DNA of 49,815 bases from NCBI RefSeq assembly GCF_017940685.1, contig NZ_JAGAYD010000160.1:1-49815 (forward strand), read 5' to 3'. The translations under genes and the position numbers were made by a program. Every line of letters begins with the position of its first letter. The stretch's first letter is position 1. Origin of the DNA: Butyrivibrio sp. (GTDB lineage Bacteria > Bacillota > Clostridia > Lachnospirales > Lachnospiraceae). Under the pieces are notes generated by a model, which saw only the letters and a list, made by a program, of their open reading frames with translations, searched no databases and was not told the origin of the DNA. Below, one piece after another: positions 14,025-42,849 of the stretch.

Positions 14025-14097
14025 GCGATAGTAGCTTAGTTGGTAAAGCGCCACCTTGCCAAGGTGGAGACCGCGGGTTCGAGCCCCGTCTATCGCT
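14025..14097 (+). tRNA. tRNA-Gly (anticodon GCC), copy 2
   Basis: Identical over all 73 bases to the tRNA at 2454, including stems, anticodon GCC and discriminator T; CCA is not encoded. The flanks differ, and each copy has its own promoter. Confidence 0.97.
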
Positions 14098-14144: not shown

Positions 14145-14177
14145 AAAAAACAGGGCACGAGATCATCTCGTGCCCTG
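14145..14177 (-). terminator. Terminator of the ECF sigma operon
   Basis: CAGGGCACGAGA (14151-14162) and TCTCGTGCCCTG (14166-14177) form a perfect 12-pair stem with a three-base loop, followed on the minus strand by TTTTTT. Plus-strand T residues are weaker, but it may also end tRNA-Gly transcription. Confidence 0.93.
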
Positions 14178-14197
14178 TCTGTTTTAAATGTTATTTA

Positions 14198-14497: not shown

Positions 14498-14534
14498 TTT
14501 ATACGAATGAATAAAACCTGTGGCAAAAATTTTT
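14498..14534 (-). promoter_or_regulatory. Candidate ECF-sigma promoter, copy B
   Basis: On the minus strand AAAAATTTTTGCCAC (14520-14534), 13 bases and TCGTATAAA (14498-14506) lie between the sigma gene and the 84-residue protein gene. The same two blocks with the same spacing occur at 42813-42849. The predicted 5' leader is about 40 bases. Confidence 0.65.
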
Positions 14535-15006
14535 ACAACATTTCTCTAAGTTTTCCTAAAGCCTCTCTGTGCCTTAACTTGGCGACGCCATATGACAGGT
14601 TCATCTTAACTGCTATATCCTGAAGAGTAAGTCCCTTGTAATACCTAAGGACAATTATGTCCATGAGTTCCTGCGGGAGCTTACCGAGAGCATCTGCTAA
14701 GAGCTCAAGGCTCTCGTTGTTTAAGATCTCATCCTCAATAGTGCTGCCTTCATCGCTAAGATCCTCCGGAATCTCAGAATGAACGTGATTGGTCCTGTAA
14801 AAATCTATAACTGTATTGCTGGTCATTGAGTAGATCCATGTCGAAAGACTGGCCTTGGTCTCATCGTAAGTATCAAGTTTACTATAAATCTTTACGAAGA
14901 TATCGCTGGTAATATCCTCAGCGTCCTCTGGTGAATTAACATGATTTCTTACATATCCAAAGACTTTGTCTCTGTACTGAGTATAAATCTCTTCTTTTGT
15001 CAGCAT
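14533..15006 (-). CDS. ECF-type RNA polymerase sigma factor
   Basis: A 157-residue sigma-70-family factor containing only region 2 (YVRNHVNSPEDAEDITSDIFVKIY and ASLSTWIYSMTSNTVIDFYR) and region 4 (LPQELMDIIVLRYYKGLTLQDI and AVKMNLSYGVAKLRHREAL), the ECF pattern. A GTG three codons upstream is possible, but the AGAGGG site sits directly against it and is eight bases from the ATG at 15006, so I chose the ATG. No transmembrane anti-sigma factor is adjacent; the only operon partner is the small 84-residue protein. Promoter-like elements at 14498 and 42813 are the best candidate targets. Confidence 0.93.
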   Translation of the reverse strand: MLTKEEIYTQYRDKVFGYVRNHVNSPEDAEDITSDIFVKIYSKLDTYDETKASLSTWIYSMTSNTVIDFYRTNHVHSEIPEDLSDEGSTIEDEILNNESLELLADALGKLPQELMDIIVLRYYKGLTLQDIAVKMNLSYGVAKLRHREALGKLREML

Positions 15007-15040
15007 ATTTTCCACCCTCTTAAAGATAATATAATAATTA

Positions 15041-15068
15041 ATTATACCCTAATTCCAGCACTTGCTAA
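15041..15068 (-). promoter_or_regulatory. Promoter of ECF sigma gene
   Basis: TTAGCA (15063-15068 on the minus strand), a 16-base spacer and a perfect TATAAT (15041-15046). Its -35 box overlaps the -35 box of the divergent tRNA-Pro promoter. Confidence 0.6.
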
Positions 15069-15099: not shown

Positions 15100-15173
15100 C
15101 GGGGCGTGGCTCAGCTTGGTAGAGCGCTGCGTTCGGGACGCAGAGGTCGCGTGTTCGAATCACGTCGCCCCGA
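15100..15173 (+). tRNA. tRNA-Pro (anticodon CGG)
   Basis: A 74-base cloverleaf. Acceptor CGGGGCG pairs with CGCCCCG and the discriminator is A. The anticodon stem CTGCG/CGCAG holds loop TTCGGGA, giving anticodon CGG for codon CCG. The T loop is TTCGAAT. CCA is not encoded. Confidence 0.97.
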
Positions 15174-42812: not shown

Positions 42813-42849
42813 TTTATACGAGGGGAAAACATTCGTGGCAAAAATTTTT
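42813..42849 (-). promoter_or_regulatory. Candidate ECF-sigma promoter, copy A
   Basis: On the minus strand AAAAATTTTTGCCAC (42835-42849), 13 bases and TCGTATAAA (42813-42821) lie about 50 bases before the ATG of the small membrane protein. Both blocks and the spacing equal those of copy B at 14498-14534, while the 13-base spacers differ in sequence. Confidence 0.65.

Follow-up and report, generated by a model that had tools for sequence, protein, structure and literature searches.

A dispersed promoter family often preceding double-glycine leader peptide genes in Butyrivibrio is probably read by an ECF sigma factor

ECF sigma factors of the Firmicutes, such as SigW of Bacillus subtilis, are associated with an AAC-type −35 box and a membrane anti-sigma factor. 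Alternative sigma factors of Clostridium, among them UviA, which acts at a plasmid bacteriocin locus, control toxin and bacteriocin genes. FlgM is an anti-sigma factor that is itself exported. The Butyrivibrio locus described here resembles the SigW type in its two-domain sigma factor, the CGTA of the −10 box, the fixed spacing and the dispersed regulon, but differs from it in the −35 (TTTTGCCA), in a small leader-like partner protein and in the many leader peptides among the targets. The likeness to UviA, drawn by description only, lies in an alternative sigma factor driving bacteriocin genes in Clostridia; in contrast, a partner protein accompanies the many scattered leader peptides of the present system, and the exporter is of the NHLM type. 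Systems of NHLM/NHLP bacteriocin export (TIGR03796, TIGR03797, and TIGR03794) share with the present one a sigma-adjacent transporter, which in genome G058 scores above the TIGR03796 cut-off, but five leader peptides scanned here showed no match to NHLP or Nif11 leader models and were therefore not filed as NHLP precursors; against leader models for class II bacteriocins, RiPPs, and lanthipeptides, these peptides scored weakly and below cut-off. The likeness to FlgM is offered as a hypothesis only and concerns a small soluble sigma partner that might be coupled to an export machine. Among titles and abstract openings of the open-licence literature we found no ECF sigma factor tied to NHLM/NHLP export or to Butyrivibrio double-glycine peptides, and no paper of that literature that joined NHLM or NHLP with sigma terms; the word sigma is absent from PMC13289728 as far as its main text goes.

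The window is the whole analyzed stretch of 49,815 nt (contig NZ_JAGAYD010000160.1, the fifth of 281 contigs in a 3.67-Mb draft genome). On its minus strand, AAAAATTTTTGCCAC-N13-TCGTATAAA occurred with an exact letter match and equal spacing at 14498..14534 and 42813..42849, as the original prediction had it. No third copy was found in the window with up to three mismatches allowed, and none was present in 100 shuffled windows; GCCAC-N14-CGTATAA likewise occurred twice in the window vs. 0 times in the shuffles. Element 1 (14498..14534, minus strand) comprises an A/T tract, a −35 box (TTTTTGCCAC), a 13-nt spacer, and a −10 box (TCGTATAAA), and it shares bases with the sigma stop codon; element 2 (42813..42849, minus strand) has the identical two blocks and spacing. 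With a weight matrix built on 128 exact sites from related loci, the two elements scored 42.2 and 40.9 and the next best window position 2.6, the matrix being strict because it was made from exact sites.

The predicted gene assignments were also recovered: an ECF sigma gene (P0001, 157 aa; 14533..15006, minus strand), with Pfam and NCBIfam profile matches; an 84-residue open reading frame encoding the partner protein P0002 (14198..14452, minus strand) behind element 1; and a gene for a membrane-type protein of 67 aa, P0003 (42558..42761, minus strand), behind element 2. The distance from CGTATAA to the ATG was 46 nt for P0002 and 52 nt for P0003. Homologs of P0003 lie behind the element in G006, G022, G029 (two), and G068. 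A strong inverted repeat flanked by a T-run at either end (14150..14178), predicted on the plus strand and with its minus-strand T-run read from the sequence, is a likely terminator behind P0002 and likely also serves the tRNA-Gly gene of the opposite strand. A terminator-like hairpin stands behind P0003 (42431..42471, minus strand). No promoter element was found before the sigma gene in this genome by pattern search or by weight-matrix scan of the window; a housekeeping-type promoter-like site, TTAGCA-16-TATAAT (15041..15068, minus strand), lies there by consensus match alone. The sigma–partner pair is flanked by tRNA-Gly (14025–14097) and tRNA-Pro (15100–15173) genes on the other strand.

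P0001 scored 64.5 bits against Pfam Sigma70_r2, 46.1 bits against Sigma70_r4, and 100.6 bits against the NCBIfam sigma70-ECF model (cut-off 42.9). Its start may be placed at the ATG at 15006, which is common to homologs, and a GTG at 15015 is open too. The r2 and r4 regions cover residues 10–76 and 109–158 of 160, so that sigma2 and sigma4 alone are present with a linker of <50 residues, which excerpts of a review give as a feature of ECF sigma factors (PMC8103513). A −10 box with CGT, of the ECF type, was present at both window sites as TCGTATAA, and CGTATA also occurred at the sigma–partner junction of distant loci that were chosen without any Butyrivibrio pattern; in the genus-wide and held-out scans, the −10 was itself part of the search pattern. 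The usual AAC box was not found in the −35, which is TTTGCCA here. The same excerpts name AAC as usual for the ECF −35 and describe ECF target promoters as variable, with no clear-cut rule; the non-AAC −35 thus weakens the label of a typical ECF factor but not that of an ECF factor by domain build (PMC8103513). The element stands before the partner–sigma genes themselves in G019, G058, and FCS014, and in the window the partner alone lies behind it.

A genome search for GCCAC-N14-CGTATAA with 0–1 mismatch, put forward with the original prediction, returned 16 matches vs. 10 for the reversed pattern; only two were exact in the whole genome, both inside the window. This difference was not decisive, and the pattern was replaced by forms based on TTTGCCA. 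Both elements belong to the family TTTGCCA-N14/15-TCGTATAA (strict form), with 9 strict sites in this draft genome. The sigma factor has its nearest named relatives in Butyrivibrio, and the genus sample consisted of 80 Butyrivibrio genomes, 24 of which carry a close sigma ortholog (69–100% identity) and 3 more a relative of 43–48% identity. The strict form was present in all 24 genomes with a close ortholog and in 2 of the 56 others. A longer pattern with two mismatches allowed gave a bimodal distribution over 61 genomes (at least three matches in 19 genomes and two or fewer in 42). With the gap left free (TTTGCCA-N13..17-CGTATAA), matches were observed in all 18 close-sigma genomes among the 61 and in G009 and G051; one or two matches each were found in 7 of the remaining 41 genomes, and none of these eight matches had the strict form. 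Reversed-pattern controls gave 0–1 match per genome and strand.

The 20 site-rich genomes contained 113 sites, of which 110 were examined after exclusion of two sites with a 13-base gap (G019 contig 9, G051 contig 7) and one site (G029 contig 37) whose sequence matched a window site exactly. The gap between TTTGCCA and CGTATAA was 15 nt in 92 sites, 16 nt in 16, 14 nt in one, and 17 nt in one. The base preceding TTTGCCA was T in 83%, TTTGCCA itself being imposed by the search. The last base of GCCAC was variable: among 101 distinct sites, C accounted for 46% and T came second, so that the −35 first proposed as GCCAC holds for GCCA and fails for its final C. The median distance from a site to the next start codon was 45 nt (5–95% range, 29–100 nt), and sites fell inside an open frame of at least 100 codons in 18 of 128 distinct cases vs. 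350 of 530 random 29-mers, which bears out the predicted family of promoter-like elements of fixed spacing before small-protein genes. The near identity of the two window blocks could also have arisen if both copies came from one duplicated sequence, as with a repeat or mobile element. However, the spacers differ, as had been noted at the outset, the flanks differ too, the 101 distinct sites have a nearly fixed length, and the sites point at start codons; the probability of such an origin is negligible, and duplication and chance alike were rejected (0 in shuffles, 101 distinct sites).

We then consider the tie between the element and the sigma factor in 19 held-out genomes, which were unused for derivation and whose sigma status was fixed beforehand. 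The strict pattern was present in 6 of 6 sigma-bearing genomes (with 7, 11, 4, 3, 5, and 6 sites) vs. 0 of 13 others, two of which carry a distant sigma factor (Fisher's exact test, P = 3.7e-5, uncorrected for relatedness); one reversed-pattern match was found in the set. The sigma-bearing genomes are related, and the counts are therefore not independent. No strict sites occurred in G008, G077, and G078, which carry the distant sigma factor (43–48%).

The comparison was extended to 17 distant loci of Clostridia (L242–L258) with sigma factors 43–60% identical. The partner was present in 15 of these loci and followed the sigma gene in 10, and in 6 of the 10 the sigma–partner gap contained GCC(A/G)-N14-(T/A)CGTATA (L243, L244, L245, L246, L248, and L249; sigma identity 46–55%); L243/L244 and L245/L246 are near relatives. 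The gap of L255 has GCGA at the same spacing, that of L257 has the same −10 with a different −35, and in L250 and L254 the gap is just 13–15 nt long. Where the partner precedes sigma (five loci), no clear element was seen in the 130 bases upstream of the partner, and elsewhere in the distant loci the loose pattern was not in excess (9 further matches vs. 12 reversed).

Taken by comparison of sequences, these data make it very probable that the elements act as promoters for the ECF sigma factor whose gene lies at 14533–15006 and that they belong to a dispersed Butyrivibrio regulon rich in double-glycine-leader peptides. Reading by the adjacent sigma factor had originally been proposed without genome comparison; it is now supported by the co-occurrence in 80 genomes, the held-out test, and the distant junction sites, from which we infer recognition of the element by this factor in the cell. 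The element might instead be a promoter or operator for some other factor, whether another ECF sigma or a repressor, that happens to be inherited together with the adjacent sigma, and the atypical −35 would agree with this, as would G009 (6 sites, 6 strict) and G051 (8 sites, 7 strict), where neither sigma nor partner was detected. Against it stand the held-out result and the junction element in other Clostridia, which points to the adjacent sigma, and we regard reading by another factor as improbable. One candidate, the ECF factor adjacent to a site in G051, is an unlikely reader, since 35 of the 61 genomes have relatives of it, and many of these genomes lack strict sites. Repeats are often lost from draft assemblies, and the missing sigma of G009 and G051 may therefore be an assembly effect. 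The site sequences of these two genomes are close to those of G066, which seems to be FCS014 from its three sigma copies on contigs that bear the same numbers; FCS014 is a likely relative, and the sigma locus may be absent from the two drafts through assembly. The sigma–partner locus of FCS014 is present in three copies on three contigs (L231, L232, and L233) with an adjoining UPF0236 gene. These copies are 99–100% identical on pieces of 2.4–7.5 kb and represent either true repeats or assembly redundancy.

Regulon content and the exporter link, both established by comparison, are additions beyond the original prediction. When the first open reading frame behind each of 100 distinct discovery sites was assigned by simple rules, 36 were double-glycine leader peptides, 8 belonged to the partner family, 10 were lipoproteins by pattern, 24 were other small proteins, and 11 were other proteins, with no open reading frame in 11 cases. 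The held-out genomes had 36 sites, and the 28 distinct ones in the 30 loci retrieved were classified as 7 leader peptides, 3 partner proteins, 5 lipoproteins, 7 small proteins (one of which, in L304, is also a partner homolog), and 6 others. Among open reading frames of 40–110 aa, a text pattern for the double-glycine leader of class II bacteriocin type, LxxVxGG near the start of short precursors, matched 40 of the 74 behind sites vs. 5 of 55 controls (Fisher's exact test, P = 7e-8); 11 of the 74 encode the partner. Of the five control matches, three were leader-like, including two that are alternative starts of a single gene, and the others were membrane proteins. Two further control sets, 18 of 127 with a looser double-glycine pattern and 26 of 206 with double-glycine, were set aside, because both drew on loci selected by their sigma or exporter genes; the 55 controls come from other loci. 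CxxC pairs occur in some peptide cores, and one peptide showed weak zinc-ribbon matches.

The TIGR03796 exporter was found in all 24 sigma-bearing genomes vs. 26 of the 56 others. It is also present in G009 and G051, and with these two counted the contrast is 26 of 26 vs. 24 of the remaining 54 (Fisher's exact test, P = 2e-7). Sigma goes with the exporter and not the reverse, because 24 of the other 54 genomes also have TIGR03796; twelve candidates were scored per genome, so that absences are less sure than presences. The exporter of the genome under study scored 886.7 bits for TIGR03796 (cut-off 853.3), and no element was found in the 1 kb upstream of it; none of 14 control genomes had a match above this cut-off. 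In G019 and G058 the gene order is element, 43–45-aa peptide, partner, sigma, and peptidase-ABC transporter; the G058 transporter scored 875.5 bits for TIGR03796 (cut-off 853.3), and the next gene 664.8 bits for TIGR03797, below the cut-off of 709.4. A peptidase-ABC transporter lies 4–6 kb upstream of sigma in G012, G014, G041, G050, and G053, and 8 of the 17 distant loci have a strong match to the profile of these transporters in their flank. Export and trimming of the leader peptides are most likely the work of peptidase-ABC transporters of the NHLM/NHLP type, which the sigma gene adjoins in other species. As a separate observation, an unannotated 403-aa gene and a gene for a STAS anti-sigma-antagonist (TIGR00377, above cut-off) lie beside sigma in FCS014 (L231:5504-7035), a SpoIIE-type phosphatase gene adjoins an exporter in L286:2-679, and STAS-like genes similar by eye occur in L268 and L288; such neighbors are a possible partner-switching input.

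P0002 was present in 18 of 18 close-sigma genomes and in G008 (43% sigma identity) but in 0 of 42 others among the 61 genomes. Of 41 loci, 34 have the partner next to sigma, the three FCS014 copies being counted among these, and in G014 and G039 it is on a different contig from sigma. Its layout consists of a conserved MExKLxxLFDYQKFxxNxxLxxxI, a leader-like LSDDELxxVxAAG (LSDDELGMLNAAG in the window), and a variable tail; the leader-like end is SGG in L242 and AGG in L258. Next after the partner gene of L057 comes a double-glycine peptide gene. By its position, P0002 could be an inhibitor (anti-sigma factor) of the adjacent sigma, a reading we place somewhat short of an even chance. When sigma and partner were modeled with AlphaFold as a single read-through chain, partner residues 6–25 had block means of 82 and 92 (pTM 0.51); the partner alone, with a different alignment, had values of 70, 74, and 85 over residues 1–30 (pTM 0.27). 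Judged by these confidence values, which are moderate for the partner, the models lend weak support to a sigma–partner contact.

It is about equally conceivable that the regulon is real and that P0002 is another exported leader peptide, a substrate and not an inhibitor. Its leader-like end followed by a variable tail is what such a peptide would have, and in the L057 and L257 homologs this tail is zinc-ribbon-like, as in some other leader peptides. However, P0002 strictly co-occurs with and mostly adjoins sigma, and its conserved FDYQKF..N..L..I was not seen by eye in other leader peptides. The two roles might also be joined in an anti-sigma factor with an export-substrate leader, whose N-terminal helices would hold sigma and whose LSDDEL..AAG end the NHLM exporter would recognize through its C39 peptidase; free exporters would then cut or remove P0002 and release sigma. 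We consider this rather unlikely. If true, the synthesis of secreted peptides would be paced by export capacity, and a peptide-secretion ABC transporter would here underlie a Gram-positive equivalent of FlgM. The leader-like end of the partner makes a coupling of export and transcription testable.

Under our preferred reading, in which the adjacent sigma reads the elements, sigma would be made from the candidate housekeeping-type promoter at 15041–15068 and would direct transcription of P0002 and the peptide genes. P0002 would perhaps hold sigma back, such that sigma switches on its own antagonist in a negative feedback. The remainder of the regulon would consist of lipoproteins, further small proteins, and, in certain species, structured transcripts that contain no evident gene. 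From this arrangement, a single regulator seems to coordinate a program of peptide secretion that has been overlooked in Butyrivibrio gut bacteria. Small secreted peptides scattered in the genomes of Clostridia are easily missed by cluster-based mining tools, and the promoter signature offers a direct route to listing candidate secreted peptides of Butyrivibrio, with one sigma factor and one partner as a handle for switching them.

Several minor observations concern the sites themselves. In G051 (L147:601-2072), a strict site is followed by a double-glycine peptide gene, a different and widespread ECF sigma gene, and another small gene. Eleven element promoters in seven genomes, all with sigma factors of 69–74% identity, precede transcripts without an evident gene (L122, L123, L128, L129, L130, L159 on the minus strand, L163, L165, L173, L177, and L183), two of which (L129 and L165) fell among the small proteins in the tally of open reading frames. 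No Rfam family reached its gathering score on these transcripts, with tRNAs found in one locus only; the matches below threshold were to unrelated families and were taken as chance. In their first 200–330 nt, the transcripts carry repeated hairpins of the form GC-N2-5-GCUU whose stem letters differ. Hairpins of this form with at least four pairs numbered 20 in 4.6 kb (4.3 vs. 0.028 per kb in other loci), several of the copies being near identical, and these structured transcripts behind the same promoters are a further output to explain. Finally, proteins of 42–45 aa with a common ..DV.K(Y/F)(L/M)KEE-like end lie behind the element in L094, L110, L121, L132, L148, L164, L175, and L297, and a protein of this kind is encoded by the first gene ahead of partner and sigma in G019 and G058.
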